Shown here: piece after piece, positions 20,039-38,473 of the stretch
Layout: every line of letters starts with the position of its first letter
Position numbering within the stretch: the stretch's first letter is position 1
Source of the DNA: Salinisphaera sp. T31B1
Lineage (GTDB): Bacteria > Pseudomonadota > Gammaproteobacteria > Nevskiales > Salinisphaeraceae
Direction of reading: 5' to 3'
DNA length: 64,000 bases
Assembly: GCF_040361275.1 (NCBI RefSeq)
Contig: NZ_APNH01000001.1
Coordinates: forward strand, 1,213,001 to 1,277,000
Notes under the pieces: generated by a model
The model's database searches: none
Told to the model about the DNA's origin: nothing
Seen by the model: only the letters and a program-made list of their open reading frames with translations
Program-made: the position numbers and the translations under genes

Positions 20039-22174
20039 ATGCGAGGTATCGGATGGTTGATCGGGCTCGGCGGGCTGGCGATCGTTGGGCCTGCCTCGGC
20101 ACAGACGGCCGCGCCTGGAACGAGGGCGGGCCAGACGGGCCTGGCCCCGATCGCAGTGGTCTCCGACCGGCCGGAGGGACGCTCGATTACCGCCAATCCA
20201 CCCGTGCAGGCGGCGGATACCGCGGCTGCCCTGCAGGACGTGCCGGGGGCCGCACTGCTCGATAACGGGCGGGTCAGCGGCCAGGCTCAGTATCGAGGCC
20301 TGTCAGGCTATCGCAACAACGTACGTATCGACGGCATGGGCATCGACAGCGGGGGGCCCAACTGGATGGACCCGCCGCTGCACTATGCCCCGGCGGCGCT
20401 GGTCGAGCGGGTTCGGGTGACGCGCGGCATTCCATCGGTCGCCGACAGCGTCGATGCGATCGGCACCGTCGTTGAAGCCGAGACCGATCGCGGCGATTAC
20501 GCTGCCGACGATCGACTGAGTTTCGGCGGCCGGCTCTCGTCGACCATCCGCAGTGTCGATAACGGCCACAGTGTAGGGGGGCGGGTACAGGCGGCCAGCC
20601 GCCGGACCAAGGTTGGCCTGTCCGGCGCGACCGACCGCGCCGGCGATACCCGCACACCGTTCGGCCGGATTCGCGCATCGAGCGTGGCGCGTGACCAGTA
20701 CGGCCTGGATTTCGGTCATCGCAGCGGCCTCGGTGAGACCACCGGTTTCGTTCGTCATCAGGATACCGGCCGCACCGGCACGCCGTCTCTGCCGCTGGAT
20801 ATCGAGTTCTTCGATACCACGCTGGCCCAGCTCGGCCATCGTGCGACCCTGGGCCGGACCACGATCGAGACCCGGGTGTCGTTCGACCATGTCGATCACC
20901 GCATGACCAACTTCGAGCTGCGTCGGCCGCCCGACTTCAGTCCGCTCAACGGCACGGCGGCCGATCGCCGATTCATCGATGCGCGCAGCCAGGGTTACGG
21001 CGCCGAGGTCGATATCGATCATCGCCTGTTCGGGGGCACGCTGTCCGGCGGCTTCGATACGCATCTGGCCCAGCATGATGCGACCGTCGGCAACCCGGAC
21101 AATCCGATGTTCTTCGTCGATGCGTTCGATGCCATCCGGCGCGACTACTACAGCGGCTATACCCAGTGGGCCGGCCCGCTGACCGGCCGCTGGACCGGCG
21201 AGCTGGGCGCGCGCTATACGCACGTGGTCATGGACGCCGGGCCAGGCGGCGTGGCCGCCGGTCTGCCGCGGCCGGCGCAGAATCTGGCGGCCGGATTCGC
21301 CAGCGCGGACCGGCACACGACCGACGACAACGTCGATGTGGTCGCCCGGCTGGCGCGCGGCTTCGGCCAGCGCTGGACCGGTTATCTCGGGCTCGGGCGC
21401 AAGACCCGCTCGCCGTACTATATCGAGCGCTATGCTTATATCCCGCTCGAGGCGACCGCCGGGCTGGCTGATGGCAACAATCATGTCGGCGATATCGGAC
21501 TGGCGCCCGAGGTGGCCTACGAGATCAATCTGGGCACGGATTTCGAAGGCCAGCGGCTGACGTTTTCGCCGCAGTTGTTCTATCGCCGTGTCAATGACTA
21601 CATCACCGGCGTGGCCGTGGACGACACGCCGGGCATCGTTGACAGCGATGTCGAACGGGTGAGCGCAGTCAACGGCGATCCGACGCCGCTGCGCTATGCC
21701 AACGTCGAGGCCGAGCTCTACGGCGCGGACCTGTCGGCCGGCTACGCGCTCGCCCCGACCTGGCAGCTCGAAGGCGGCGGTGGATACACGCGCGGCCGGC
21801 GGGTCGACACCGGCGACGACCTGTATCGTATCGCGCCGGCCAATCTGCGGGCCAGACTCATCTGGTCGCCGACCGACTGGAGGCTGGCGCTGACCCAACG
21901 CTATGTCTTCGCCCAGCACCGGGTATCCGAGACCCATGCCGATGCCCGGCTCGCCGAGCCCGAAACCGCCGGCTATGCGCTGACCGACGTATCGGCCGCC
22001 TACCGGCTCAGCCAGGCGCTTACCCTGACTTTTGGCATCGACAATCTGTTCGACAAGGGCTATCGCGACTTCCTGGCGGGCTACAATCGGGCCGGTGGCG
22101 GCGATATCCCGGTCGGTGCGCGTTTGCCGGGGGCCGGTCGTAATGCGTATGCGAGTCTGGCCGCCCGGTTCTAG
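20039..22174 (+). CDS. TonB-dependent outer-membrane receptor, copper-receptor-like plug
   Basis: Protein of 711 residues with a signal peptide (ASA-QTA) and an AGGGGG ribosome site. The plug domain (about residues 45-165) includes QYRGLSGYRNNVRIDGMGIDSGGPNWMDPP, followed by LVERVRVTRGIPSV. The C-terminus ends in aromatic Phe (LAARF) as expected for a 22-strand barrel. The PN-x-MDPP element resembles the metal-binding plug segment of OprC/NosA copper receptors, but the cysteine found there is absent. The two-component pair starts 35 bases downstream in the same direction. Copper is a reasonable but unproven ligand. Confidence 0.85.
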   Translation: MRGIGWLIGLGGLAIVGPASAQTAAPGTRAGQTGLAPIAVVSDRPEGRSITANPPVQAADTAAALQDVPGAALLDNGRVSGQAQYRGLSGYRNNVRIDGMGIDSGGPNWMDPPLHYAPAALVERVRVTRGIPSVADSVDAIGTVVEAETDRGDYAADDRLSFGGRLSSTIRSVDNGHSVGGRVQAASRRTKVGLSGATDRAGDTRTPFGRIRASSVARDQYGLDFGHRSGLGETTGFVRHQDTGRTGTPSLPLDIEFFDTTLAQLGHRATLGRTTIETRVSFDHVDHRMTNFELRRPPDFSPLNGTAADRRFIDARSQGYGAEVDIDHRLFGGTLSGGFDTHLAQHDATVGNPDNPMFFVDAFDAIRRDYYSGYTQWAGPLTGRWTGELGARYTHVVMDAGPGGVAAGLPRPAQNLAAGFASADRHTTDDNVDVVARLARGFGQRWTGYLGLGRKTRSPYYIERYAYIPLEATAGLADGNNHVGDIGLAPEVAYEINLGTDFEGQRLTFSPQLFYRRVNDYITGVAVDDTPGIVDSDVERVSAVNGDPTPLRYANVEAELYGADLSAGYALAPTWQLEGGGGYTRGRRVDTGDDLYRIAPANLRARLIWSPTDWRLALTQRYVFAQHRVSETHADARLAEPETAGYALTDVSAAYRLSQALTLTFGIDNLFDKGYRDFLAGYNRAGGGDIPVGARLPGAGRNAYASLAARF

Positions 22175-24027: not shown

Positions 24028-25803
24028 TCAGTCGCCCGCCGCCTCTCGAGACCGGCTGTTGCAGTATTCCACCATGCCGGCGTCCGAGCTGGCCCGGCGT
24101 TCGGGCCGCGCGACGCGCTCGTCTTCGCGGTAGAGCGGACACTCGCGCAGCCGGCCGTCGTCATCGTAGACCGCCCATAATCCAGTACGCCGGCCCGTGT
24201 CGTCGTAGTCGCCTGCCTCGACCGGATAGCCCCACGGGTTGATCGCCTGCCAGTGGCCGACCCGCTTGCCGTGGTCGTAGCGGCCGTGCCAGGTCCTGCG
24301 GCGCGCCGTGGTTTCGATCCAGGCGCCTTGCTTGGCGCCGTCGGCATAGCGGCCCTGTTCGAGCAGGTCGCCGTTTTCGTCGTAGCGGGCGTAGTCGCCG
24401 TCTTGGGTGCCGTGGTCGTAGTGGCTGCGCTCAATGAGTTGGCCGTCGCGGCTCACGGTGAATACGCCCTCGCGCCGCCCGTTGGCATAGGTGCCGATGC
24501 TCTGCTGGCCGTTGTAGGCGATCTCGATGAACGGGCCCTGGCGTGTGCCGTGTACCCAGGTGGTCGCGCGCAGGGGCTTGCCGTCGAGCGTTTCGTATTC
24601 GCCGCCGTGGCGCTGTCCCTGATCGTCGTACTGGATCGTCGTGGTGCGGTGGTTTTCGTCGGCCTCGAAGAAGCGGCCCACGCGATGATGGTGGCGCAGC
24701 TCGCGGCGATAGACCAGCTTGCCCTCGCCGTCGAAACGGACTTCGATTTCCCGCGCCTGGCCGGGGAAGCCCGTGATGTGCGCGTAGACATAGCCGTGAT
24801 CATCGAAGTATTCGCGCACCTCGCGCGGCGGCTCGGCGTCGCGCAGATGACGTACGCGGATCTTCGGCCGGCCGTCGTCGTATTCGGTCTTGGCCAGGAG
24901 GTTGTTGGCGCTATCGAACACGGTCTTCACGGTCACCCGGCTGTTTACGTCGTAGCGCTTGACGATCTGTTGGCCCACGCGTTCGCCGTGACGGTAATGG
25001 GCGATTTCGCTTAGCTGGCCGGCGGCCTGGTCGTGCCAGTAGCGCTCAGGGCCGTCTTTCTTGCCGTCGATATAATGGGTTTCGCTGATCGTGGCGCCGG
25101 CTTCGTATTGGCGAAACCAGCCCTGCGGTTCCCCGTGGCGATAATGGCCGCGGCTGGTCAGGCCCGGCTGCATGCCCGTGGTGTACTGCTCGGTCAGGCC
25201 GTCGAGCTGATCGTCGCGATAGTCCTCGATACGCCAGACCTGGCCCTGCACGTACTCGACGTGCACGCCGTTGCGCTGATCGTTTTTATAATGGGTGATG
25301 CTATTGAGCTCGCCGTCGACATACCGGCGGGCCTGGCCGTCGCGCTTGCCGTCGCGATACGGGGTTTCGCTTTCGAGCCGGCCCTGGTCGTCGAAGGTCG
25401 TGACCAGACCCTGCTGGCGGGCCTGGGCATCGGTGGTGCCGACTTCGGCCAGGCGGTGTTCGCCGGTCATGCGATAGAGCTGATAGGCGCCGACCCAGGT
25501 GACGTCGGTGTCGCCGGCTTCGGGTTGTTCCACGTAGCCGCGCATACGCAGGGCATCGTCTTCGATCCGGCGCAGCTCGGCCGGCCAGCCGATGCCGTCG
25601 CGTTCATCGGCCACGCTCAGCCGATAGCTGGCGCGCGCCTGGCTGTCGACCGGATACAACCCGTCGTCGAACCAGAACACGGTCGCGGCCCGGGCCGTGA
25701 GCGCGTAGCCCAGCACGGCGGCGGCGATTAGCAGCGTCCGGGCGAGGGCGGTCAGCCGCCGGGCGTGGCTCGGCCGGTTCGCATTTGGCGCGGCGGCGAT
25801 CAT
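24028..25803 (-). CDS. Exported MORN/YwqK-repeat protein, paralogue 2 (last gene of novel operon)
   Basis: About 591 residues from the ATG at 25803, which overlaps the upstream stop by four bases (ATGA); this supports the start over a longer upstream frame. A signal peptide ends ARA-AT near residue 40. Residues 41-130 form an N-terminal domain shared with the next protein upstream (DERDG-x-GWP, WVGAYQLYR-x-x-GEH). The rest is a series of 20-25-residue units of the type Y-x-D/N-G-x-x-x-G-x-x-x-x-Y, as in YwqK/MORN repeats. These fold into beta-hairpin solenoids. Databases sometimes call the family 'antitoxin', but nothing here shows a toxin partner. Function unknown. Confidence 0.8.
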   Translation of the reverse strand: MIAAAPNANRPSHARRLTALARTLLIAAAVLGYALTARAATVFWFDDGLYPVDSQARASYRLSVADERDGIGWPAELRRIEDDALRMRGYVEQPEAGDTDVTWVGAYQLYRMTGEHRLAEVGTTDAQARQQGLVTTFDDQGRLESETPYRDGKRDGQARRYVDGELNSITHYKNDQRNGVHVEYVQGQVWRIEDYRDDQLDGLTEQYTTGMQPGLTSRGHYRHGEPQGWFRQYEAGATISETHYIDGKKDGPERYWHDQAAGQLSEIAHYRHGERVGQQIVKRYDVNSRVTVKTVFDSANNLLAKTEYDDGRPKIRVRHLRDAEPPREVREYFDDHGYVYAHITGFPGQAREIEVRFDGEGKLVYRRELRHHHRVGRFFEADENHRTTTIQYDDQGQRHGGEYETLDGKPLRATTWVHGTRQGPFIEIAYNGQQSIGTYANGRREGVFTVSRDGQLIERSHYDHGTQDGDYARYDENGDLLEQGRYADGAKQGAWIETTARRRTWHGRYDHGKRVGHWQAINPWGYPVEAGDYDDTGRRTGLWAVYDDDGRLRECPLYREDERVARPERRASSDAGMVEYCNSRSREAAGD

Positions 25804-27107
25804 GCCGGGCGCGTCCGGTCCTGGCGCGCGCGTACGGCCTGATCGTCTTGCAATGCCCGGGCGGCGGCGTCGGCCGGCTTGCCGTGGGTCATCTGCCAGC
25901 GATGAATCGTGCCGTCGCGTCGATGGTCGGCCTGTTCGCCGTGCAGCCGGCCTTCGTCGTCGTAGCGACGCCATTCGTAGCCGCCCTCGTAGGTCTCATC
26001 GATCTGCAGGCCGGTCTTCTTGCCGTCCACGACTTCCTCGCGATATATGATCCCGCCGTCGACGGCATAGCGCGTGACGATCCGGTGCGGCGTGTCGGCG
26101 AAGATGATCCGGCGGGCCACGAGATGGCCGGTGTTGGAAAAGTTCTCGGTAACGCGCTGCTCGCGGCCTTGATCGTCGGTTTCGATCCGCTCCTCGACCT
26201 TGCGCGGGCTGCCCTTGATCGGCCAGAACTGGGTTCGGCGCAGTCGGCGCTTGTCATCCCCCAGCACGCGTTCTTCGTCCAGACGCCCGCCGCTGTACTC
26301 CTGCAGCAGGCCGTATAGCTTGCCGTCGCGATAGTGGTATACCGCGTCAAGATGGCCCGCCGCCTGGTCTTCCCACCGCCGCTCGACGCCGTTCTTCTTG
26401 TCGTCGACGTACTGGGTTTCCTTGAGCAGCGCACCGTCGAGCGACCATATACGTTCCCAGCCGTTGAGCTTGCCGGCGCGATAGTGGGCACGCCGGGTGA
26501 GCACCTGCGGCGAGCGGCCGTAGCCGTATTCTTCGACCACACCGTCGATCTTGCCGTCGTGCAGTTCCATGAGCTTGCGAATACGCCCGTCGCGATAGGT
26601 GGTCTGAATGCCTTCCGACTTGCCGTCGACCAGCGGGGTGAGATGACGCAGCTCGCCGCGGACATAGCGCCGGCCCATGCCCTGCATCACGCCGTCGACA
26701 TAGGGGGTTTCGTAGGCGAGATCGCCGTCCCGGCTGAATCCGACGGCCAGGCCGTTGAGTTCGCCGGCCAAGTTGCGGGTACCCACTTCCTCGAGTTTGT
26801 GCTCGCCGGCGAATCGGTAGAGCTGGTAGGCGCCCACCCATGTCTGATCGGCATCGCGCAGGTCGGGGGTGGAGCTATAACCGCGAAAATGCAGCTGGTC
26901 GTCGCGGATACGACGGATCTCGACCGGCCAGCCGGGCCCGTCGCGCTCGTCGGCCACGATGGCCTTGTGCGTGGCGTTGGCCTTGGCCACGGCTTCGAAG
27001 TCGTCGTCGAGCCAGTAGGTCTGGGCCGCGAACGCGCCGGCGGCCTGTAGTATCAGCCCGGCAACGAGCGCGGTCTGCAACGCGTAGCGATAAATCGAGC
27101 GATTCAT
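25800..27107 (-). CDS. Exported MORN/YwqK-repeat protein, paralogue 1
   Basis: 435 residues from the ATG at 27107, which overlaps the preceding stop as ATGA. A signal peptide ends AFA-AQ near residue 28. The N-terminal domain (residues 29-115) closely matches that of the downstream paralogue (VADERDGPGWP, WVGAYQLYRFAGEH), then about ten YwqK-like units follow (YRAGKLNGWERI, YVDDKKNGVERRW, YRDGKLYGLLQEY). It is shorter than its sister by about 150 residues, all in the repeat region. The two genes look like a tandem duplication. The product should be periplasmic or surface-exposed. Its role is unknown; co-translation with the four large paralogues upstream suggests a shared complex. Confidence 0.8.
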   Translation of the reverse strand: MNRSIYRYALQTALVAGLILQAAGAFAAQTYWLDDDFEAVAKANATHKAIVADERDGPGWPVEIRRIRDDQLHFRGYSSTPDLRDADQTWVGAYQLYRFAGEHKLEEVGTRNLAGELNGLAVGFSRDGDLAYETPYVDGVMQGMGRRYVRGELRHLTPLVDGKSEGIQTTYRDGRIRKLMELHDGKIDGVVEEYGYGRSPQVLTRRAHYRAGKLNGWERIWSLDGALLKETQYVDDKKNGVERRWEDQAAGHLDAVYHYRDGKLYGLLQEYSGGRLDEERVLGDDKRRLRRTQFWPIKGSPRKVEERIETDDQGREQRVTENFSNTGHLVARRIIFADTPHRIVTRYAVDGGIIYREEVVDGKKTGLQIDETYEGGYEWRRYDDEGRLHGEQADHRRDGTIHRWQMTHGKPADAAARALQDDQAVRARQDRTRPA

Positions 27108-29467
27108 TGCAGGCCCTCGAGATGGGTATGCCAGCGTTTCTCGATTGGCTCGCCCGAGAACGTCACCGACTTCACCCGCGCGATCCGGCCCCAGAAGCGG
27201 ATACGCCCGGCATCGTCCAGATAATCGGCCACGGCGTGGTTCGCACCTTCGACGCGCCAATCGTCGAGCTGGATGTCCGGTGTCATGTCCTTGAGCATGG
27301 GCCGTACGAGCTTGCCGCGGGCGTCGAGAAAACGATGGCTGTCGAAAAAGCGCTTGGCTTTCTGATCCGGGTCGATTTCGCCATCGAACACGGTATCGAC
27401 ATCGACCAGCCACGGTTTGTCGCTGTCGGCATTCACCTCGCGTACCTGCCAGGCGGGCCGGCCGGGGCAGCGCAGCGTGGTAATGACATCGATGCCGTAG
27501 AAATAGATGCGCACACCATCGTCGGTCATCAGCTGCCACGGCGCGGTATCCGGATGTTCGCCCGTGCGACGGCTGCCGATGCCGAAACCGGCCGCCCGCT
27601 CGTCGTCGGGCCGCCAGACCAGGGCATGGCCGGATTCGGTCGGGGCGTCGGCGCTCAGCTCACAGGCCGAGCCCACGCCGATGGGCAAACGCATGGCCAG
27701 CTGATTCTCCTCCACGCCTTCGGGGGCAACGTCGTTCAGGCTCAGCGACGCATCGTCGGGAACCTCGTCGATATACAGTTCGCGCGTCTCCGGCGGCGGC
27801 AGTTCGCGGTTGGAATAACGCTGCTGCCGGCTGGTGAACGTCACGTCGTGCGTGCTCGGCCCGGGCATGTTCTTGTATAACTTCAGCCCGAAAGCATTGC
27901 CCGTGCCTTCGACGAGAATCTGCTGCACCCAGGCATCGGGGGCGTCGACGCGCGCCAGCAGGGTGCGATCCGAAGGCGTCAAACCCTCGTGGGCTTTTTG
28001 GCTGATCCGTGCCGACAGGTCGCGCGCAAAGACCGCACTGCTGTCAAAGATATAGAACGTCTGCTCGGTGCCCGACAGGATCAGCCGCCAGCCGTCGTCG
28101 GTGGGCACCGCGCGTGCCTGTGCGGCGCCGGCGTGCAGTTCGGTGGGCGTATCGGCCAGTGGAATTTCGACATGCTCGGGTTCGGCGGGTACGGCGTAGT
28201 CGAATTGGGCCTCGACCTCGGTGATGCGATCCAGCCCGGCATCCTGCCAGCCCAACGGCAGCAGGCGCACGGTGGTGTTCATGCTGCCCTGTGCATAGTC
28301 GGGCCCGATGGACTCCAGCACCAGCGGGATATCCAGCGTCTTGCCGTCGGCGTCGCGCAGGGTGAGGCCTTTGAGCGTCGACATGCCCAGGTTTTTGTCG
28401 ATGCCGATATCGTGCGCGAGCGTGAGCACCAGCGCGTTGTCGGCCTCGTCGATCGAGAAACTCGGGTCGGCGTCGGCATACGGCGTCTCGGCCGGGTTGA
28501 ACCCGCGCCCGCGGTCGGCTTCACTCGGTCGGTGCGCCAGGGGCAGCTCGACCTCGTCCGATCGTTGGCCCATCTGTCCCGTGGCGCGTAGTTGATCCAG
28601 ACCGTTCGCCAAGGAACCGAGCGCGGGATCGTCGACGGCGTGCATGGTCATGATCGTATGCATATGGCCGCTTCGGTCGTCGGTCTGGACGTCCTGATCG
28701 CTGATCAGGGTCATCGCATCGATCCAGCCGCCGTCGCGATCCACGCGCATGCGCCCGTGCACCGCGGTGACGCGCATACGGGCGTTGTCGTCGGAGCCGC
28801 CGATCGGGGTATAGGCGCTGTCGGCATCGTCGGCGCGCTCGAGTGTGACGGTCACGCTGTCGTCGGTGACCGTATCGACGGTCAGGGTAAGCGCGGGCAT
28901 GCCCTGAAACGCATCGACCGTGATCTGTGCGCCCTCGCGGGCCGGCAGTTTCTCGGTGAGTGACGGGGCAGCCAGTTGTTGCGTGAACTGATCGGTCTGC
29001 GTTGTGCCGGCGCGTTCGCTGAACTCGTCCCAGGCGCGCTGGTTGACCGCGTCCAGGCGTGTGTCGCCGTTTTTGCGATCCATGATCAGTTCGAAGCCGT
29101 CGCTCATCAGATCGGCGATCGGCATGCGGCGGTGCTTGTCCGGCCTGGCGCTGGAAAACAGCGTATGCCCGTCACCGTCGGCGACATCGATGAAGCGCGG
29201 CTGGACATGCAGCTTGAGCGTCGGGCCCGCGCCGTCGACGCGATATCGCATCACGCTCTGCATCACCAGCGACTGGCTGTTGAAGGCGGTGGGCGGGTCG
29301 TCACCCTCGCGGATCTGTGCAATCACGCCGACCCGGTAATCGCGCGTCTCGCCCTTGGCCGGGTCGAAGGTCACACCCGACGGCGCCCACAACAACATCG
29401 CGGCCATGCCGGCCGCGATGAGCGCCAACAGGGCGACAAGGGCCAGAACCAGTTTTTTAGTCGACAC
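27104..29467 (-). CDS. Membrane-anchored exported protein of novel family, long form (D)
   Basis: About 787 residues. I prefer the GTG at 29467, six bases after GGGGAG, over a TTG two codons earlier. A signal anchor (LVLALVALLALIAAGMAAMLLW) leads to domain 1 with the family marks SVMRYRV (71-77), PAREGAQI (175-182) and GWIDAMT (247-253). Domain 2 carries LTLRDADGKTLDIPLVLESI and ends DDGW. A C-terminal domain of about 150 residues is shared only with protein A and begins near a Cys (GSACEL). It continues through LRCPGRP and RIRFWGRIARV. These two cysteines are the only ones in the protein, suggesting a disulfide. No known family recognised. Confidence 0.72.
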   Translation of the reverse strand: MSTKKLVLALVALLALIAAGMAAMLLWAPSGVTFDPAKGETRDYRVGVIAQIREGDDPPTAFNSQSLVMQSVMRYRVDGAGPTLKLHVQPRFIDVADGDGHTLFSSARPDKHRRMPIADLMSDGFELIMDRKNGDTRLDAVNQRAWDEFSERAGTTQTDQFTQQLAAPSLTEKLPAREGAQITVDAFQGMPALTLTVDTVTDDSVTVTLERADDADSAYTPIGGSDDNARMRVTAVHGRMRVDRDGGWIDAMTLISDQDVQTDDRSGHMHTIMTMHAVDDPALGSLANGLDQLRATGQMGQRSDEVELPLAHRPSEADRGRGFNPAETPYADADPSFSIDEADNALVLTLAHDIGIDKNLGMSTLKGLTLRDADGKTLDIPLVLESIGPDYAQGSMNTTVRLLPLGWQDAGLDRITEVEAQFDYAVPAEPEHVEIPLADTPTELHAGAAQARAVPTDDGWRLILSGTEQTFYIFDSSAVFARDLSARISQKAHEGLTPSDRTLLARVDAPDAWVQQILVEGTGNAFGLKLYKNMPGPSTHDVTFTSRQQRYSNRELPPPETRELYIDEVPDDASLSLNDVAPEGVEENQLAMRLPIGVGSACELSADAPTESGHALVWRPDDERAAGFGIGSRRTGEHPDTAPWQLMTDDGVRIYFYGIDVITTLRCPGRPAWQVREVNADSDKPWLVDVDTVFDGEIDPDQKAKRFFDSHRFLDARGKLVRPMLKDMTPDIQLDDWRVEGANHAVADYLDDAGRIRFWGRIARVKSVTFSGEPIEKRWHTHLEGLQ

Positions 29468-29580
29468 GTGCAACTCCCCATGGGGAAAAAGAAAAACAAG
29501 ACAGGGCGCGGTCGCCCGATGCGGCGCGCCGCACGATACGCCGCGCCGGTGCGCCGGCTTCTTGGCAACGCCCGGCCACG

Positions 29581-29610
29581 ATCGCTATCGCCATCGCCAT
29601 CGCCATCGCC
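29581..29610. repeat. Five-unit hexanucleotide tandem repeat
   Basis: ATCGCT followed by four perfect copies of ATCGCC. It lies in the 150-bp gap between the stop of gene C (29618) and the start of gene D (29467), seven bases after the stop codon of gene C. The neighbouring gap sequence has no reading frame of interest. Confidence 0.85.
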
Positions 29611-29617
29611 TTCGGGC

Positions 29618-31216
29618 CTAGCGGGTGAACGTCAGCTCATGCGTGCTCGCGTTCGCTTCGGCCGCATACAGGCTGAGCGCGAACGCCTCGATATCGCCCT
29701 CGAGCTCGTACTGCTGGATCCAGACATTGGGGTCGTCGACGCTGTCGAGCAGCACCTGATCCGTGGGTGCGGCGCCGCCGTCGGCGCGGTCGCTGGTGAT
29801 GGCCGAGCGGCCCTTGAACACGGTCGTGTGGTCGTAGGTGTAGTAGGTGCTGTATGAGCCGATCAAGGTGACGAGCCAGCCGTCGTCGACGGGCACGGCC
29901 CGGGCATGGGCCGGCCCGTGTTCGAGTTCGGTGGCGGTATCGCGCAACGGCAGGCTCACGTAGGTGGGCGCGCCGACCGGCTGATAGGTGAAGCTGGCCT
30001 GGACTTCGGCGATCTCGTCGAGCCGGTCGGGCTGTGGCCCCAGGGCGAGCAGACGTATGCGCGAGGTGTTGTCTTCGTCGCGGTTCTGCCCGATCGATTC
30101 GAGCACGAAGCCCAGATCCAGGGTGTTGCCGTCGGCGTCGCGCAGCGTGAGCGTATCCAGCGTGATCTGGTCGATGCCGATGTTCTCGCCGTTGTGATGA
30201 CGGATGTCGAGGACCAGCGCGCCGTGTTCGTCGTCGATATGAAACACGGGTTCGGAATCGGCAAGCGGGTTTTGTGGCGGCTCGATTTCCCGGCGCTCCG
30301 GGGCGTCGGCGGCACTTTCGGGCAGGTACATGTCGGCGCCGGCCAGCGCGGCGAGCATGGCATTGGTCTTGAATTGACGGAGACTGTCGTACAGGCCGCC
30401 GATGGCCGGATCGTCGACGGCGCGCAGGGTTACGGCGCTGTGCAGGCGCAGGGTCCGCCCGGCGCGCCCGACCTGTCGATCGCTGATCAGCGTCATGGCC
30501 GTGATCCAGCCGCTGCGCCGGTCGATACGCAGGCGGCCGGTGACATCGGTCACCGGGATGTCGGCGGTACGGGAATCCGGGGCTCTGTTCTCGGCCCGGC
30601 CTATGGTCGCGGTGACGCTGTCGCGATCCACCTGCTCGACGGTCAGGCGCAAGGCGGGCATGCCGTGCCAATGGTCGATCGTGACCTGCGCGCCGGGCTT
30701 TGCCGGTATGGCTCGGGTCACGGCCGGGGCGAGTATCAGCTGCCCGAGCTGCTCGAGCGGAATGTCGGTCTGGGCGGCGATCGCCTGCCAGGCCTGCTCG
30801 TCGCCGGTCTTGAGCCTTGTCGCGCCGGTTTCGCGCGTGATGTCGAGCTCGAAACCGCTGTCCATCGCGCGCGCCAGCAGGGCGTGTTCGGGCCCGCCGG
30901 GCCGGGCGCTGGAAAACACGACCCCGTCCTGATTATCGGCCTGCAGGAACCGCGGTTCGGCGTGCATCGTCAGCGTCGGCTCGTCGGCGCCGGCACGGAC
31001 GCGATAGCGCATCACGCCCTGGAGCGCGAGCCACTGGCCGCTGGAGGCATACCGGGTGCCCTCGGTCTGTGTTCGCATGGCCACCCGATACGCGTGTGGC
31101 GCGTCCTGGGCCGGGTCGAAGGCGACCTGGGCGGACGCGGCGGCCGCGACCGGGCCGTGGGCAGCGATCAGTATCCATAGGGCGATCAAGATCAGCGCCG
31201 ATTTTCCTGTGTTCAC
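29618..31216 (-). CDS. Exported protein of novel family, short form (C)
   Basis: 532 residues from the GTG at 31216, six bases after GGGAG, the same start design as gene D. The frame also extends upstream into gene B, without a ribosome site. A signal peptide (SALILIALWILIAAHGPVAAAASA) leads to domain 1 with GVMRYRV, PAKPGAQV (171-178) and GWITAMT (236-242). Domain 2 has LTLRDADGNTLDLGFVLESI and VPVDDGW. It ends after domain 2, without the C-terminal cysteine domain of proteins A and D, and contains no cysteine. It is closest to D, with which it shares FSSARP, GFEL and MTLISD. Function unknown. Confidence 0.75.
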   Translation of the reverse strand: MNTGKSALILIALWILIAAHGPVAAAASAQVAFDPAQDAPHAYRVAMRTQTEGTRYASSGQWLALQGVMRYRVRAGADEPTLTMHAEPRFLQADNQDGVVFSSARPGGPEHALLARAMDSGFELDITRETGATRLKTGDEQAWQAIAAQTDIPLEQLGQLILAPAVTRAIPAKPGAQVTIDHWHGMPALRLTVEQVDRDSVTATIGRAENRAPDSRTADIPVTDVTGRLRIDRRSGWITAMTLISDRQVGRAGRTLRLHSAVTLRAVDDPAIGGLYDSLRQFKTNAMLAALAGADMYLPESAADAPERREIEPPQNPLADSEPVFHIDDEHGALVLDIRHHNGENIGIDQITLDTLTLRDADGNTLDLGFVLESIGQNRDEDNTSRIRLLALGPQPDRLDEIAEVQASFTYQPVGAPTYVSLPLRDTATELEHGPAHARAVPVDDGWLVTLIGSYSTYYTYDHTTVFKGRSAITSDRADGGAAPTDQVLLDSVDDPNVWIQQYELEGDIEAFALSLYAAEANASTHELTFTR

Positions 31217-31250
31217 GCGAAACTCCCAACTCAAATAAAATCTGAACGGT

Positions 31251-32915
31251 TCAGGGCCGGTCGCCGCCCTCGTCTGGTGGCGTGTCGTGGCGTTTGAATT
31301 CAACGGTATAGGTCCGCGTCGAGCCCGGCGTGGTACGCATCAGCGGGTAGGCGGCGGGCGCGTGATCGGCCTGTACGCGTATGGTTTCGATCTCGGCGTC
31401 CGGGCTGTCGACCCTCGCCAGAAGCTGGGCTTCGGCGGCGCTCAGCCAGCTATCGTGCGGCGCGACGCCGGCCATGGCGTGCACGCCGGGTGCGGCCTGT
31501 GCCCAGCTGCGCTTATAGGCGTAGCCATCGCGATTTTCGATCTGCAGCCACCACACGTTGTCGGTGTCTGCATCGGGCTCGACGCTGACCCGCGCTGGGC
31601 CGTGGGTCAGTTCGTGGCGGGTGTCGTCGAGTGCGATCGTGACGCTCTGCGATTGCAGCGTGCGATAGGTCAGCGTCGCCTCGGCGCGGGCGACCGGTTC
31701 GAAGATCGCGGGATCGCCGGCGAGCGGTGAGTAGATGAACAGACGCCCGGGCTCGAAGGTGCGGTAATCCCAGGACGGCAGGATGTTGCTCAGTTCGATC
31801 GGCAATTCCACCGGCCGGTCCTCGCGGTCGTAGAGCGTGAGATCGGTCAGCGCCACGGTGTTCAGCGGCAGGCGCGCGTGCTCGTCGTCGTAGCGCACGC
31901 CCAGATGCAGCACGCTCAGTTCCACGCGTAACGCGGTTTCGCGCGTGTCGAACGCCGGGTCGTCGATGGCCGGGTCGGGCTGGCGTGTATTGGCCGGGCT
32001 TTGTCGCACTTCGACGTCGTCGGGGCTTTCGTCGGTCACGCCCCAGAACGGGTCGGACGTGTCGTTCATGTCGCCGGTGAGCAGGTCGCGCTTGCGCAGC
32101 GCCCGGGTGACGTGGTCGATGGCCACGGCCCGGCCGTCGCGGGTGGCGTAATCGCGGCGCACCCGCGTCATGGACTCGATCCAGCCGTCGTGGCGGTTCA
32201 CACGCAGGCGCGCGAGCAGGCGCGGCCTGTCGGCCGTTTCAGGGGCACCGTCGGCCACGGCTCGGGAGCGCTCGGTGGTTTCCAGGCGGACCGTGAACGT
32301 GTCGTCATCGACCCGTTCGACGGTGGCCCGGATATGGCTCAGCCCGGCATAGCGTTCGAGCCTATGCGTCGCACCGACGCGCACGGGTAGATGAGCGGCC
32401 AGTGCCGGCGGCAGGGCCGGTACGATGAGCTGGTCGAGGACCGGGTTGCCGTCGGGCGCATCGATCTGTTCGGCCAGTGTGGCCAGCGCCGGGCTGCGCG
32501 GGCGTTCGAGCGCGAGCGCGCCGTCGCTGTCGAAGGGCATATCGAAGCCGCGCTTCTGGACGCGGCGCAGCTCGCCGGACGGATACAGCGCGGCCAGCTG
32601 TGAGGTGAACACGGCCCCGTCCTGGTTGCGGGCGACGAGCGTGAGCGGGCTGATATGTAGCTGGCGGGTGTCGCCGAAATCCTCGGCGCGATAGCGCATC
32701 AGGCCATAGGTCTGGGCCCAGCGGTCGGTCGGCCCGTTCTCGTTTGCGGCCTCGCGCATCACGACCCGATGGCCGACCCGGTATACCACCGTCGTGCCGG
32801 CGGACGGCGAGAAGCGGTCGCCCTGCGCGCTTTGTATGATGCCGGTCTGCCAGACGATCACGCCTGCCACGACGACAGCGCACGACGCGCCGGCCAGAAT
32901 GATCGCGCGTTTCAC
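31251..32915 (-). CDS. Membrane-anchored exported protein of novel family, short form (B)
   Basis: 554 residues from a GTG at 32915 that overlaps the upstream stop as GTGA; the long frame to 34190 is a shadow of gene A. A signal anchor (AIILAGASCAVVVAGVIVW) precedes domain 1, with YGLMRYRA, PVRVGATH and GWIESMT (244-250). Domain 2 carries LTLYDREDRPVELPIELSN and ELTHGPARVSVEPDADTDNVWWL. It stops after domain 2, like protein C. The only cysteine is in the anchor. It is the most diverged of the four paralogues. The overlap implies fixed ratio with protein A. Function unknown. Confidence 0.75.
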   Translation of the reverse strand: MKRAIILAGASCAVVVAGVIVWQTGIIQSAQGDRFSPSAGTTVVYRVGHRVVMREAANENGPTDRWAQTYGLMRYRAEDFGDTRQLHISPLTLVARNQDGAVFTSQLAALYPSGELRRVQKRGFDMPFDSDGALALERPRSPALATLAEQIDAPDGNPVLDQLIVPALPPALAAHLPVRVGATHRLERYAGLSHIRATVERVDDDTFTVRLETTERSRAVADGAPETADRPRLLARLRVNRHDGWIESMTRVRRDYATRDGRAVAIDHVTRALRKRDLLTGDMNDTSDPFWGVTDESPDDVEVRQSPANTRQPDPAIDDPAFDTRETALRVELSVLHLGVRYDDEHARLPLNTVALTDLTLYDREDRPVELPIELSNILPSWDYRTFEPGRLFIYSPLAGDPAIFEPVARAEATLTYRTLQSQSVTIALDDTRHELTHGPARVSVEPDADTDNVWWLQIENRDGYAYKRSWAQAAPGVHAMAGVAPHDSWLSAAEAQLLARVDSPDAEIETIRVQADHAPAAYPLMRTTPGSTRTYTVEFKRHDTPPDEGGDRP

Positions 32916-35248
32916 GATGGCGGCTCCTCGAGATCTCGAGCCCGGCGTCTGGCGGCGTTCGGCCAGGTCTTCTTCACCACCGGTGGTTCGTAATCGAGCA
33001 TCACCACCCGGGCCACGTCGCCCCAGATACGGATCACGCCGTTGTCGCCCACGTAGTCGTCCACGCTGTGCTGGCGCGACTCCTCGGCCCAGTCGCCGGG
33101 CGTGTCCTCGGCGGCGGCGCCGCGCAGCCGGGGCCGCAGCGGTTGGTCGTTGGCATCCAGAAACTGCACGTGATCGAAATAGTCGGCGGCCGAGCCGGTG
33201 GACTGCGGCCAGCGGCCGGTCAGCCTGCGTAGATCCAGCTGCCAGGGCCGGTCCCCGGTCACCGCGATGCTGCGCCATACCGGCGTGCCCGGGCAGGTGA
33301 GTATTGTGTCCAGCGGCAGTTCGCTGACGTCGGCATGGGCGCCGTCGGCCAGGGTCAACTGCCAGCGTTGCATGCCGGTTGGCGGGCCGGCGTCGTCGGG
33401 CCGCGGCAGCTTGCGCCAGAGCCGGACCGGCCGATCCGGGCGCGCGACCCAGGCGGCCAGCCCGCACTGGCCGTCCAGACCCAGCGGCAGATCCATCTGC
33501 AGCCCGCCGCGCCCGTCCGGCTCGGGGGCGCGTTGCGCCAACGACAGGTCGCGTTCGCTGTATGGCGGCTGGTCGATATGGCGCGTGGTGGGCGCCACCG
33601 CCAGCGGGTTGGTGAAGCGCACGGTCTCGGTCTGGGTGATCCGGCCGTTGCCGGCATCCAGCAGGGTGAGCGCCAGCGACGGGCGGTCGGCCTCTATTCG
33701 CAGCGTGTTGTGCCAGGCGCCGGGATGTTCGGTACGCGCGAGCATGATCTGGTCGGCCGGGGTCAGCCACGTGTCCGGATCCTGGACCCAGCCGGTGCCG
33801 TGCACGCCGTCGGGCAGGGTCGTCGGGTCGAGCCAGTATTGGCGCTGGCCGCCGCTGGTCAGGGTCACACGCCAGGCGTGGGTTTCGCCCGCGATCGGCT
33901 CGGCCACGGCCCGGGCGTCGCCGTGTTCCAGGACATGGCGACGGTCGTCGAGTACCAGGGTCACCGGTTCGCCCGTTTCGCGCCGGCGATAGCCGATATC
34001 GGCGCGGACCTCGGCGATGTTGCTCAGTTCCGGGCTCTCCCAGCCGAGTGCAACGAGGTCGAACAGCCAGCCGCCGCCGTCCGCGTCGTCGTAATTCATT
34101 CGATTGTAGGCCAGCGGTATATCGACCGGTTTGCCATTGGCATCGAGTGCGGTCGCATTCTGCAACTCGAGGCTGCCATACGGCAGCCACGGCGTATCGC
34201 CGTCGTTGAGATACATCATCACGTGCCCACGCGCACTCATCAGGATCTGCGTGCTGTCGATCGGTTCGATCCGGGGCGGCGGTTCGTGCATGGGCGGTGG
34301 CGCGAACACGCCGCTGTACTGAGCCTGCATCAGATCGCTGCCCTGAACAGCTTCGATGGGCAGCATGCTGAAACCGTCGAGCGGTGTGCGTGTGCTGCCG
34401 GCCAGCAGGTGGTCGTCGCGGTGGGCGTAGGTGATCGAGCGCATCGTCGCGGCCCGCTCACCAACGGCCATACGCAGGTGGATGACCAGCGTCATGTCCT
34501 CGATCCAGCCGTGTTCGCGGTCGACGTTCATGCGAGCAGCGACCCGGACATCGGAGATTTCGATCGCATCGGTGGGCGGCGCCATCCGCTGGATCAGCGG
34601 CGAGTCGGCGGCCAGTGTGTCGAACTCGCCGGACACGCTGAGCCGGGCGCTCGTCTCGTCCAGTGCGTCGACCGTGACGGTCAGCCCGTCGAAGCCCTGA
34701 AAACCGTCGAGCTTGACGCGGGCCCCCTCGCGAGCGGGGATGCCGGGTGGCACGGCCGGGCCGAGCACCGCCTGCGAAAATGGATCGCCACCGAATCGGT
34801 CGAACTGCTTGGTAAGCTCCTGCATGGCGGCCTTGTTGACCGCCGTGATTTGCATTCGGCCGTCCCTGGCCTGGCGCAGGTCGAAGCCGGCGTCGAGGGC
34901 TTCGGCCACCTGCGTGGTGTAGGGAGCGCCGGGATCGAGATCGAGGCTGGATAACACCGACCGATAGTCGAACTGCAGGTCGAGCAGGTCGATATCGGCG
35001 TGCAGATGCAACGGTTCGCCGGCATCAACCACGCGATAACTGACCAGGCCGTAGGCGGTTGCCTTGTGATCGAGGCTACGGCCATCGATCTTCACGTTCA
35101 CGCGATTGCCCACCCGGTAGCGGTATTGGTCGCCGGCCGATGGAACGAACACGAGCGACGGCGTCGATTCGCGCAGATTGAAGAACACTGCCGCACCCGC
35201 GGCCACACTCAGCACGAGCGCGGCCACGATTACGTGTCGGCGACTCAT
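32912..35248 (-). CDS. Membrane-anchored exported protein of novel family, long form (A, first gene of operon)
   Basis: 778 residues from the ATG at 35248; the open frame runs further up but without an export signal. A signal anchor (VIVAALVLSVAAGAAVFF) is followed by domain 1 with YGLVSYRV, PAREGARV (171-178) and GWIEDMT (247-253, the same position as in protein D). Domain 2 has ATALDANGKPVDIPL and LEHGDARAVAEP. The C-terminal domain contains Cys in GQCGL, LTCPGTPVW (Cys near 652), PW-x-LD, and VIRIWGDVARV, aligning with protein D. These two cysteines are the only ones. It should sit on the periplasmic face of the inner membrane. No known family recognised. Confidence 0.72.
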   Translation of the reverse strand: MSRRHVIVAALVLSVAAGAAVFFNLRESTPSLVFVPSAGDQYRYRVGNRVNVKIDGRSLDHKATAYGLVSYRVVDAGEPLHLHADIDLLDLQFDYRSVLSSLDLDPGAPYTTQVAEALDAGFDLRQARDGRMQITAVNKAAMQELTKQFDRFGGDPFSQAVLGPAVPPGIPAREGARVKLDGFQGFDGLTVTVDALDETSARLSVSGEFDTLAADSPLIQRMAPPTDAIEISDVRVAARMNVDREHGWIEDMTLVIHLRMAVGERAATMRSITYAHRDDHLLAGSTRTPLDGFSMLPIEAVQGSDLMQAQYSGVFAPPPMHEPPPRIEPIDSTQILMSARGHVMMYLNDGDTPWLPYGSLELQNATALDANGKPVDIPLAYNRMNYDDADGGGWLFDLVALGWESPELSNIAEVRADIGYRRRETGEPVTLVLDDRRHVLEHGDARAVAEPIAGETHAWRVTLTSGGQRQYWLDPTTLPDGVHGTGWVQDPDTWLTPADQIMLARTEHPGAWHNTLRIEADRPSLALTLLDAGNGRITQTETVRFTNPLAVAPTTRHIDQPPYSERDLSLAQRAPEPDGRGGLQMDLPLGLDGQCGLAAWVARPDRPVRLWRKLPRPDDAGPPTGMQRWQLTLADGAHADVSELPLDTILTCPGTPVWRSIAVTGDRPWQLDLRRLTGRWPQSTGSAADYFDHVQFLDANDQPLRPRLRGAAAEDTPGDWAEESRQHSVDDYVGDNGVIRIWGDVARVVMLDYEPPVVKKTWPNAARRRARDLEEPPS

Positions 35249-36292: not shown

Positions 36293-38473
36293 TCAATCCC
36301 ATCGGTAGGTGATGCTGCCCACCACGTTCCGCGTCGTGCCGAAGTCGCAGAGCGAGTTCGGCGCGCTGCCGTTGCAATAGAGCTTGACCTCGTCGAGCAG
36401 GTTGTTCGCCGAAACCTGCAGCCGGACATTGTCGAAGTCGTAGCGCACCGCGGCGTCCACGAGCGTGGCCGACGGGAAACGTGCCGTGTTGTCGGCGTTG
36501 GCGAAGGACGAGCTGGTATAGCGTACGCCTGCCCCTGCGCCCAGGCCGGCCAGGGCGGACGACTGGAAGTCGTAGTTCAGCCAGAGTTTGGCCAGATGAT
36601 CGGGCCGATCAACTACGCGCTTGCCGTTGATTGCCTGGCTGCCGCCGGCTTCGACGACTTCGACCTCATTATAGGTATAGCTGGCGATGGCCGAGAGTCC
36701 GGCGCTCAGGTCTACTTCGGCACCAAGCTCGACACCGCGTGAGCGCGTCTCGCCGACCTGCGACTGAATAGTGGGCTGCAACGGATCGGCGACGAGTTCG
36801 TTGTTGCGCGACAGCTCAAACGCAGCGATCGAGAACGTTGCGTCAAACCCGTTCGGGCGATAACGCAGCCCGGCTTCGTACTGTTCGCCGGTGATCGGTT
36901 CGTATTTCTGGCCGGTGGCGTCGTTGACACCGTACTGAGGCGAGAATGATTCCGAATAGCTGAGGTAGGGCGCCAGACCGTTGTCGGCGAGATACACCAG
37001 ACCGGCGCGCCAGCTCAGATTGTTCTGTGTGTTCTTCCTGGCGTCGGTCGTCTGTTCGTCGACCCAGTCCTGGCGGGCGCCCACGGTCAGCGCCCAGCGA
37101 TCGTCGAAGCGTACGTGATCCTGCAGGTACAACCCGTACTGATTGGCGTCGGTGCTGCGTGGCGTGAAGCCGGTCGGGCGCGAGAACGCCTGATTGTAGT
37201 CGGGGTCGTAAAGATCCAGCGGCGGAATATCGGCGGTGGGGTCGGTGAATGATGTGCCGCGCGAGTCGTAGTTTATGTGCTTGTAGTCGAAGCCGGTGAG
37301 CAGCTGGTGTTCGAACGCGCCGTGCTCGAATTCGGTAACCAGCTGGTTGTCTGCCGTAACCGTTGACCCGTCGTCGTAGCGCAGGCGCATGCTTCGCGCA
37401 AGCGTACGCAGATCGTTGCTGACCGGGTCGGCCACGGCGTAGTCGCGAAAGATATCGGTGACGTCGTACTCGATCTCGCGGTAGCGCACGTTCTGCCGGA
37501 AAGTCAGCCGATCGCCGATGAGCTGCTCGAACAGATAGCCAACGCTGTAGACCTCCGAGTTGTAGCCGTCCTCGCCGGGAATGCCGATATATCGGTCTGA
37601 CGGGATGCGCCCGTAGTCGCTGTCGCGCTTCGTGCCTTCGAGCGGAAAACCGGTCCAGCGATAGGTGGCCTCGTTTTTCTGGTAGTGCGAGAGCAACGTC
37701 AAGCTCGTACGCTCGCTGGGCGTCCAGGACAGGGCCGGGGCGACGTAGATGCGATCGTTGAAGCCGTAGTCGTAGTCGGTTTCCGAATCCTGAATCAGCC
37801 CGGTCAGGCGATAGCGCCAGTGGCCGGCGTCGTCGATCCGATCGCTGATGTCACCGGTGAGCTGTTTATGGTGATAGCTGCCGAACTCGGCGCCGAATTC
37901 ACGCAGCGGCGTGGCTGTCGGGCGCTTGGTCACAAGGTTGATGATGCCGCCGGGGTCACCCTGGCCATAGAGCACCGACGACGGCCCGCGCAGCACCTCG
38001 ACGCGCTCCAGGCCATAGGTTTCGGTGGGCGCATCGTAGGGCAGGCCGGAATAACTGCGGCTGCCATCACGGTAGACCGAATCGCGCGCCTGGAAGCCAC
38101 GCACGACGATGCCGATATCGTCGATCACCTCGTTGTTGTTGCGATTGAGTACGGCTACGCCCGGGCTGTATTCCACGGCCTCGGTGAGCGCATCGGCGCC
38201 CCGATCTTCCATCTGTTTGCGTCCGATCACGCTGATGGACTGCGGCGATTCGATCAGCGGGATATCGGTCTTGGTCGCTGTCAGGCTGCGCTCGGCCACG
38301 TAGCCGTCTACCGGCGCATCGCCGCGCGTCACGCCTACGCCCCGGATATCGATCGGGGCCAGCTCGGACGTCGTCGGATGGTTGGTTTGGGCGAATACGG
38401 GCAGCAGGGCGCCCGTGCTCAGCGCGAGACCCAGCGCCCATTGGTGGCGTGTGGGCGTATTGTGAAAGATCAT
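36293..38473 (-). CDS. TonB-dependent siderophore receptor
   Basis: Protein of 726 residues with a signal peptide (VFA-QTN) and GGGGA six bases before ATG. The plug has the siderophore-receptor marks TDIPLIESPQSISVIGRKQMEDRGA, VVRGFQARDSVYRDG and ERVEVLRGPSSVLYGQGDPGGIINLVTKRP. The barrel ends with an aromatic-rich strand (VVGSITYRWD). It imports ferric siderophores across the outer membrane using TonB. The gene lies 84 bases after the reductase fusion in the same direction, consistent with a two-gene operon. Two cysteines near the C-terminus (LYCNGSAPNSLCD) probably form a loop disulfide, as in other receptors of this class. Confidence 0.93.
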   Translation of the reverse strand: MIFHNTPTRHQWALGLALSTGALLPVFAQTNHPTTSELAPIDIRGVGVTRGDAPVDGYVAERSLTATKTDIPLIESPQSISVIGRKQMEDRGADALTEAVEYSPGVAVLNRNNNEVIDDIGIVVRGFQARDSVYRDGSRSYSGLPYDAPTETYGLERVEVLRGPSSVLYGQGDPGGIINLVTKRPTATPLREFGAEFGSYHHKQLTGDISDRIDDAGHWRYRLTGLIQDSETDYDYGFNDRIYVAPALSWTPSERTSLTLLSHYQKNEATYRWTGFPLEGTKRDSDYGRIPSDRYIGIPGEDGYNSEVYSVGYLFEQLIGDRLTFRQNVRYREIEYDVTDIFRDYAVADPVSNDLRTLARSMRLRYDDGSTVTADNQLVTEFEHGAFEHQLLTGFDYKHINYDSRGTSFTDPTADIPPLDLYDPDYNQAFSRPTGFTPRSTDANQYGLYLQDHVRFDDRWALTVGARQDWVDEQTTDARKNTQNNLSWRAGLVYLADNGLAPYLSYSESFSPQYGVNDATGQKYEPITGEQYEAGLRYRPNGFDATFSIAAFELSRNNELVADPLQPTIQSQVGETRSRGVELGAEVDLSAGLSAIASYTYNEVEVVEAGGSQAINGKRVVDRPDHLAKLWLNYDFQSSALAGLGAGAGVRYTSSSFANADNTARFPSATLVDAAVRYDFDNVRLQVSANNLLDEVKLYCNGSAPNSLCDFGTTRNVVGSITYRWD

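Follow-up and report, generated by a model that had tools for sequence, protein, structure and literature searches.

A predicted exported barrel protein and a MORN-repeat protein encoded as a gene pair, tandemly expanded in Salinisphaera sp. T31B1: a candidate ligand-handling envelope module

Introduction

The YwqK antitoxin is the cytoplasmic partner of a YwqJ-type toxin. In the large lipid transfer proteins (LLTPs), which are animal proteins, an N-terminal beta-barrel is built around helices, and a helical domain comes after the barrel. A third set of proteins, LolA/LolB/RseB/LprG-LmcA/EPDR1, forms a fold superfamily of exported domains with a curved beta-sheet and helical insertions (PMC6363788), a description that also suits the modelled domain 1 of protein D of the present locus.

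The locus lies in a window of 64,000 nucleotides from Salinisphaera sp. T31B1. A sequence-only reading of this DNA had proposed a six-gene operon for two paralogue families, both exported and neither of recognised function, which might act as a periplasmic complex in fixed ratio. Here we compare the locus with the systems above and with its relatives in other bacteria.

Results and discussion

An ORF check of the window placed six minus-strand genes, A to F, at 24028-35248, all with the lengths and ends previously claimed. Gene A (32912..35248) encodes a protein of 778 aa with an N-terminal hydrophobic anchor or signal, a barrel domain 1 and beta domains 2 and 3; gene B (31251..32915), one of 554 aa with domains 1 and 2 and without domain 3; gene C (29618..31216), one of 532 aa with a signal peptide and domains 1 and 2 only; gene D (27104..29467), a three-domain protein of 787 aa; gene E (25800..27107), one of 435 aa with a signal peptide, an N-terminal domain and MORN-like repeats; and gene F (24028..25803), one of 591 aa with a signal peptide and a MORN beta-ribbon that is predicted to be one layer thick and to have about 40 strands. 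As also proposed, three junctions are four-base overlaps (GTGA at 32912 for A/B, ATGA at 27104 for D/E and at 25800 for E/F), and the remaining two are gaps of 34 (B-C) and 150 bases (C-D).

The same gene order with similarly tight spacing is seen in S. orenii, where the junctions from A-B to E-F are an overlap of 4, gaps of 35 and 113 and two overlaps of 4, and in Salinisphaera UBA6602, with an overlap of 4, gaps of 102 and 124, an overlap of 4 and a gap of 29 (the gap of 102 hinges on the trimmed start chosen for C). Judged from this spacing and conserved order, the six genes appear to form an operon. Their dN/dS values against S. orenii, 0.25-0.46, fit real, constrained genes. A scan gave one promoter site (vs 1.4 in shuffles) and seven terminator sites (vs 6.0 in shuffles).

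Proteins A-D are paralogues with 27-30% identity to A (30% for D), and a search of the T31B1 genome with A returned only A-D at E <=0.001. E and F share 38% identity. The two proposed families are thus borne out by identities, export having been judged by eye from the N-termini of the A-F products. The sequence motifs fared less uniformly. GWI-x-x-MT, assigned to all four large proteins, is indeed invariant in A-D, whereas P-A-R-x-GA, likewise assigned to all four, holds strictly for A and D alone, with P-V-R-V-GA in B and P-A-K-P-GA in C. The domain 2 motif had also been attributed to the whole family, but LTLRDADG-x-TLD and DDGW were seen in D and C and are absent from A and B; moreover, DDGW occupies an internal position and does not mark an end.

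In D, domain 2 (27818..28480, minus strand; about residues 330-550) is strand-rich in the model. A third domain, overlooked by the sequence-only reading, is common to A and D and missing from B and C; in D it corresponds to 27119..27715 on the minus strand (about residues 585-783), is strand-rich, and carries invariant cysteines at 602 and 667. The two cysteines are kept in all 26 three-domain proteins (26/26), and domain 3 is probably closed by a disulphide bond. The idea that domains 2 or 3 are repeats of domain 1 was rejected, as hhalign gave it no support. On a D1-D2 tree, B shares a clade with A and with the D2 copies found in UBA6602 and NP40, and C clusters with D and G284 (83/91).

That A-D have no recognised function was confirmed by the family searches: there were no Pfam matches at E up to 1 and no PADLOC family, and the sole NCBIfam match was at chance level (C, E 0.14). 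Twelve homologues gave three single-member Pfam matches only (E 0.007-0.02), none to a lipid-transfer family, and gene 1, as we call the A-D type of gene, gave only two weak matches at E up to 1 against PDB sequences, neither of them a lipid-transfer protein or LolA. A known anti-phage defence system was rejected, there being no PADLOC match, and so was a phage origin, since none of 81 pattern matches in viral contigs was confirmed as a relative. A lipobox pattern is present in 14 of the 18 gene-1 homologues outside the genus.

AlphaFold2 modelled domain 1 of D (28631..29371, minus strand; residues 33-279) as a barrel that has about 12 strands and contains helical insertions (pLDDT 82.7). Its best matches were apoB (Z 15.1 over 217 residues, 4.8 A), lipovitellin (Z 13.6 over 210 residues, 3.8 A), vitellogenin (Z 12.3) and MTP (Z 11.7), the lipid-transfer-protein alignments spanning 208-217 residues. 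Since matches to domain 1 took up the whole list for D, domains 2 and 3 were left without a fold match, which is no sign that their folds are new. The model, a single one built from 19 sequences, suggests for domain 1 of D a fold resembling the beta-barrel with which animal lipid-transfer proteins begin, without a sequence match to these proteins among A-D or their homologues (Pfam, PDB sequences). Unlike an LLTP, however, D continues past residue 279 mostly in strands, its longest modelled helix being of 12 residues, and the gene-1 protein is bacterial, exported and encoded with a MORN protein.

The LolA/LolB superfamily gave weaker fold matches, mostly middling on the program's scale (LmcA Z 8.2, LolA 7.2, RseB 7.0, EPDR1 6.1), and the gene-1 protein has two domains in addition. 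Domain 1 gave no Pfam LolA match, and its alignment to LolA_like by hhalign had Prob 0.06, 17 of the 27 loci read having entered the LolA_like alignment.

It is conceivable that domain 1 binds nothing and is a closed barrel of generic type, with an inserted helical part and a purely structural role in an envelope scaffold. In keeping with this, no sequence link to lipid binders was found, generic barrels (autotransporters, the best unrelated ones) reach Z 10.9, and the alternate-face hydropathy of the strands is only modestly two-sided and weak on several of them. Yet lipid-transfer-protein barrels take all five top places among the fold matches and exceed the best unrelated barrel by 0.8 to 4.2 Z, even if MTP at 11.7 and the autotransporter at 10.9 count as a tie under the program's own rule, and we consider an empty barrel unlikely.

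For E and F, the sequence-only reading had described a signal-led domain plus YwqK/MORN repeats. The signals were again judged by eye; as to the repeats, F exceeds the MORN_2 (PF07661) cut-off of 29.6 bits with 37 bits, whereas E, with 15.2 bits, stays below it. The F model (pLDDT 88.3, pTM 0.62) is a single-layer MORN sheet that matches MORN1 (Z 14.1), junctophilin-2 (Z 12.3) and OspA (Z up to 10.5). F thus passes the Pfam cut-off and shares the MORN fold with MORN_2/YwqK-type proteins, but E and F differ from them by a signal peptide and an N-terminal domain before the repeats, and they are encoded behind a large barrel protein rather than a YwqJ-type toxin. They do not have the features of a YwqK antitoxin: both start like signal peptides by eye, and A-D contain no toxin family in Pfam or NCBIfam. 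MORN proteins of only 336 aa (G284) and 384 aa (Rhodovulum) occur, so not every MORN protein of this kind has the long ribbon and the N-terminal domain.

Within NCBIfam, E and F match just one named family, that of the LIC20035 adhesin (NF033566; 35 and 66.4 bits), which has a similar repeat region. This raises the possibility of a surface or adhesion apparatus, in which the MORN protein would be exposed in the manner of OspA-like sheets or of the LIC20035 adhesin from Leptospira, with its outer-membrane anchor provided by gene 1; the likeness of the single-layer sheet to OspA and the frequent lipobox in gene 1 would agree with it. However, both scores are far under the 250-bit cut-off, and MORN1 and junctophilin match F better than OspA does, so that an adhesin seems quite improbable.

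Relatives outside the genus, searched for with D as query, showed that the core unit is a three-domain gene followed by a MORN gene, also found in Shewanella, Plesiomonas and other gammaproteobacteria and in Rhodovulum and Martelella; a novelty confined to the genus was therefore rejected. Two of the census scans scored at most two candidates per genome, and the counts from these scans are lower bounds; regions L088 and L105-L107 are left out of the comparison. Co-occurrence with YwqK-type partners was found: in 15 of the 17 non-Salinisphaera loci opened via gene 1, a MORN gene lies directly downstream. The junction ranges from a 4-base overlap to a 12-base gap in 13 of these 15, with larger overlaps, computed from longest-ORF starts, in two (G641, G782). 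One further MORN gene (G625), picked up by the MORN profile, lies directly behind a diverged gene 1 (E 4.7e-19, with a gene-1 HMM built without it). A second MORN-like match in the same genome (contig 32) has no gene-1 match within the 13 kb opened, and G720 holds another MORN-like match on contig 55. Gene 1 has no adjoining MORN gene at L072 and L103, outside the genus, or at L043, within it, and the gene behind A is B.

The two homologues with only two domains outside the genus (G446 and the short one of G720) have no MORN gene alongside, and domain 3 and the MORN gene appear to go together. Within Salinisphaera (14 genomes), six genomes match both genes at full length, seven neither, and one (gene-1 fragments only) has no MORN match. 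The three-domain and MORN genes are equal in number in five of the six carriers (2:2, 2:2, 1:1, 1:1, 1:1); in UBA6602 the ratio is 4:3, the fourth three-domain gene being a divergent lone copy. Because B and C are duplicates that lack domain 3, and because G072 and G082 carry the pair by itself, the unit consists of two genes and not of six. Distances in one family track those in the other (Mantel r 0.86 over 15 pairs, and 0.89 over the nine outside Salinisphaera; 0/20,000 permutations each), as expected of co-inherited genes, even though the nearest neighbour is identical in both families for only 10 of the 15 pairs. Equal gene numbers and correlated distances are in line with the proposed complex in fixed ratio, but for the pair rather than for a six-gene unit.

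A universal third component was rejected, as nothing is constant among the neighbours. In three of four alphaproteobacterial loci (L051, L055, L056), a DUF805 gene has a 4-base overlap with the MORN gene, the gene table of the fourth (L052), where none is listed, being possibly incomplete; L073 and L101 have a membrane gene without Pfam family ahead of gene 1.

In the comparison with S. orenii, dS inside the operon is 0.10-0.39, vs 0.65-1.01 in five flanking genes, and identity in 300-base bins is 0.86-0.97 inside, save 0.81 and 0.74 at the D-C junction, and 0.62-0.75 just outside. The operon thus looks as if it had been exchanged by recombination between the two genomes, over about 24900..35100 as judged from dS and the bins.

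Such an exchange of the whole block might be expected of a competition or immunity module, in which the envelope pair would guard against an antibacterial toxin or help to deliver it, and in which copies would multiply and recombine because the targets diversify. Annotation names such as 'YwqK family antitoxin' point in the same direction, as do the patchy spread (6/14 in the genus), the copies on plasmids, the decayed gene-1 remnants in G076, and a dN/dS above that of the neighbouring acetyltransferase gene (0.25-0.46 vs 0.105 against S. orenii). A T6SS effector/immunity cluster would be encoded together with an effector, and in a Plesiomonas plasmid, a gene annotated as toxin VasX and four related small membrane proteins lie upstream of the pair. 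This is, however, the only named toxin in the six annotated regions opened, the other loci carrying no annotation; those neighbours of the operon in the window that were tested with Pfam comprise TonB receptors, a two-component system, a reductase, an acetyltransferase, a phosphoesterase and an MFS transporter; and PADLOC gave no match. An immunity function is accordingly regarded as doubtful.

Conclusions

The gene pair itself is well supported, and no paper describing it was found in the open-access literature searched. From the evidence above we infer its binding and function as follows. The explanation we tentatively favour, at somewhat less than an even chance, is that the locus arose by tandem expansion of an undescribed envelope module of two genes, which is exchanged horizontally and whose products form a ligand-handling periplasmic complex. 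Gene 1 would encode an exported protein, usually a lipoprotein and here mostly with an N-terminal hydrophobic helix, made up of a lipid-transfer-type barrel, a strand-rich middle and a domain 3 probably closed by a disulphide; gene 2 would encode an exported MORN protein folded into a long one-layer beta-ribbon. The two products may bind each other, probably through domain 3, with the ribbon serving as an elongated periplasmic scaffold. The barrel would bind a hydrophobic ligand (a lipid, a lipoprotein acyl chain or a similar small molecule), to be carried, held or sensed, and B and C, lacking domain 3, would be extra ligand-binding subunits without a MORN partner of their own.

A more specific version appears improbable at present, namely a trans-envelope lipid or lipoprotein apparatus, spread horizontally, in which the barrel is docked by its disulphide-closed domain on the periplasmic MORN ribbon, with extra barrels in Salinisphaera. 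A ribbon of about 40 strands, near 190 A if straight, could span much of the periplasm.

Whatever its role, the pair is a conserved one that recurs in Alpha- and Gammaproteobacteria, including the laboratory strain Shewanella oneidensis MR-1 (SO_RS22780 and SO_RS22785), and its gene 1 matches no family model. If the barrel does bind lipid, it would be a bacterial protein that resembles, among solved folds, most closely the start of animal lipid-transfer proteins, and it would give a job to exported MORN proteins now annotated as 'antitoxin' or 'hypothetical'.

The six genes and their two families

The six minus-strand reading frames A to F (24028-35248), described in the sequence-only reading as one operon of two exported paralogue families, were found exactly as described in the window (positions 1213001-1277000 on contig 1, genome of 4.36 Mb). 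A-D form one paralogue family and E and F another; a third domain is present in A and D (the gene 1 type), while B and C are two-domain copies without it. A Pfam search of A-D gave no match, and an NCBIfam search only one, for C, at chance level. Both E and F matched the Pfam family MORN_2, F over the cut-off and E under it, as well as the NCBIfam LIC20035 adhesin model, with scores under its cut-off. The nearest named relative found was Salinisphaera orenii MK-B5 (88% for D). The surroundings are iron-uptake-like, with two TonB-dependent receptors and a PepSY/flavodoxin-type reductase flanking the operon (20204-22174, 36293-38473 and 38558-41086).

Occurrence within Salinisphaera

D-type matches came from 7 genomes and E-type matches from 6 among the 85 of the order, all belonging to one genus. 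In the genus sample of 14 genomes (that of the window and 13 others), six have full-length genes of both kinds and seven gave neither a D-type nor an E-type match. Genome G076 has only decayed gene-1 fragments, in two places (L042 4878-5828; L041 6237-7187), of which one is the chromosomal site corresponding to that of the operon, beside acetyltransferase and TonB receptor genes; no MORN match was found in this genome. G072 and G082 contain a single three-domain gene adjoining a single MORN gene and nothing more of the system, and the six-gene form is an expansion of this two-gene pair. Three-domain and MORN genes number 2:2 in the window genome and in S. orenii and 1:1 each in NP40, S. hydrothermalis and Q1T1-3. 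The ratio in UBA6602 is 4:3; its three-domain genes include a divergent copy with no MORN neighbour (L043), and its third MORN gene is deduced from two contig-edge pieces.

Occurrence and gene order outside the genus

When named genomes were scanned, a relative at 23% identity turned up in Shewanella xiamenensis, where a MORN gene starts 10 bases after it. When this protein was compared with plasmids by tblastn, nine records matched: Rhodovulum (3), Martelella (3), Plesiomonas, S. oneidensis MR-1 and one labelled Dysgonomonadaceae. The last (CP070278.1, Dysgonomonadaceae bacterium zrk40) is close to the Martelella lutilitoris plasmid NZ_CP066788.1 in length (246192 vs 246197 bases) and in match identity, and its label may be wrong or derived from a co-culture. 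On the Plesiomonas plasmid (L053 1-8025), the pair is preceded by a gene annotated as toxin VasX and by four genes for related small membrane proteins. Profile searches, in overlapping sets that include genomes previously known to match, matched at least 5 of 369 genomes of the class and at least 7 of 398 of the phylum (two candidates at most being scored per genome in these two), 7 of 197 in the order of G782 and 3 of 145 in the order of G625. The class match in G144 spans 57 positions only and was excluded from further counts.

Seventeen non-genus loci found via gene 1 were opened (L050-L056, L070, L072-L074, L076, L077, L101-L104), and in 15 of them gene 1 is immediately followed by a MORN gene in the same orientation; L072 and L103 have none directly behind gene 1. 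The two-domain homologues outside the genus (G446 and the short one of G720) have no adjoining MORN gene; in G446 a MORN match is absent genome-wide, and G720 has a further MORN-like match on contig 55. In Plesiomonas a frameshift splits gene 1; in G782 the MORN reading is split. In G625 the MORN gene was the starting point, and the gene immediately before it is a diverged gene 1; for the MORN-like match on contig 32 of this genome, no gene-1 match was seen within the 13 kb opened. Four-base overlaps occur at 12 of the 22 junctions tabulated (six in Salinisphaera, six elsewhere), a set including six junctions from Salinisphaera and that of G625; three further junctions (G641, G782 and G625) come out as larger overlaps as a consequence of choosing the longest ORF.

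In G855 (L101 3276-5496) a single gene 1 is followed by two consecutive MORN genes. A gene for a DUF805 membrane protein shares four bases with the MORN gene in Rhodovulum and in Martelella lutilitoris (L051 9275-9799, L055 9284-9769, L056 9797-10306), and is a possible third partner in alphaproteobacteria. In two congeneric species, the gene just before gene 1 encodes a multi-pass membrane protein (L073 9811-10731; L101 7860-8813); the two proteins have similar N-termini and no Pfam family.

Co-inheritance of the two families

A Mantel test, in which D of the window was matched to E by adjacency and S. orenii, the second Rhodovulum and Martelella, Plesiomonas, G625, G852, G855 and G1101 were omitted, gave r = 0.86 for 15 pairs and r = 0.89 for the nine pairs outside the genus (0 of 20,000 permutations in each case). 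The two families agree on the nearest relative for 10 of the 15 pairs and disagree for G284, MR-1, G641, G720 and G782; the MORN protein of G284 is closest to F, not E. Both trees, with long branches flagged, recover the Rhodovulum-Martelella-G718 group and the S. hydrothermalis-Q1T1-3 and UBA6602-NP40 pairs, and link MR-1 with G720. The Mantel result and the trees show co-inheritance of gene 1 and the MORN gene, which is distinct from binding.

Predicted folds and location

The model of D, built from 19 sequences (pLDDT 82.7, pTM 0.78), predicts for domain 1 (residues 33-279) a roughly 12-stranded barrel into which helices are inserted. In a second-look alignment of this domain, the five best chains were all lipid-transfer-protein barrels (Z = 15.1 and 13.6 for apoB, 13.6 for lipovitellin, 12.3 for vitellogenin, 11.7 for MTP), followed by an autotransporter (10.9), LmcA and DUF1849 (8.2), LolA (7.2) and RseB (7.0). 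Plain Foldseek gave a probability of 1.00 for MTP and LmcA, and its top rows ranked by E-value were mostly low-probability porins. Gene 1 is not classed with the lipid-transfer proteins because it has neither their helical domain nor a sequence match, nor with the LolA members because of a middling fold match and a failed profile test; a sequence link to either group could not be demonstrated. PMC6363788 assigns EPDR1 to the LolA superfamily and gives hydrophobic-ligand binding as the unifying feature of that superfamily. The open-access literature searched yielded no paper linking LolA with lipid-transfer barrels and none on the gene 1/MORN pair. Judging from its predicted fold, the gene 1 barrel may bind a ligand; a rival reading is a barrel without one.

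F was modelled as a long single-layer sheet (pLDDT 88.3, pTM 0.62) with MORN1 as best fold match and junctophilin a close second, and by score and predicted fold F is a MORN_2 protein. A surface scaffold is another explanation to be considered for the pair.

A lipobox pattern occurs in 14 of the 18 homologues outside the genus and, among Salinisphaera copies, in 1 of 19 by script (UBA_B) and by eye also in L043. This pattern, with the N-termini inspected by eye, suggests that the pair's proteins are exported. The cysteine pair of domain 3 is present in all 26 three-domain proteins and is compatible with a disulfide in an oxidising compartment.

Apparent recombination and proposed role

Synonymous divergence (dS) from S. 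orenii is 0.10-0.39 across A-F vs 0.65-1.01 across five flanking genes. Identity in 300-base bins is 0.86-0.97 over 24.9-35.1 kb, apart from lower values of 0.81 and 0.74 near the C-D junction, and drops to 0.62-0.75 in the adjacent bins, which fall within the initial ~50 codons of A and towards the end of F. Further out, the acetyltransferase bins show an identity of 0.83-0.84, yet dS for this gene is 0.65. One boundary of the apparent recombination tract (window 24900-35100) lies in A, no further in than about codon 50, and the other lies inside F; the operon appears to have been recently exchanged between the lineages of the window genome and S. orenii.

Beyond what has been established, i.e. 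the pair, its spread and co-inheritance, the cysteines and the predicted folds, we propose an envelope complex in which a hydrophobic-ligand barrel protein would be associated with a MORN scaffold. Contact between the two would involve domain 3, because most three-domain genes keep a MORN neighbour and the two non-genus two-domain ones do not; B and C would be additional barrel subunits. A competition or immunity module is a rival to this envelope complex. As for the operon itself, the apparent exchange, the patchy occurrence, the plasmid copies and the decayed remnants mark it as an accessory trait.
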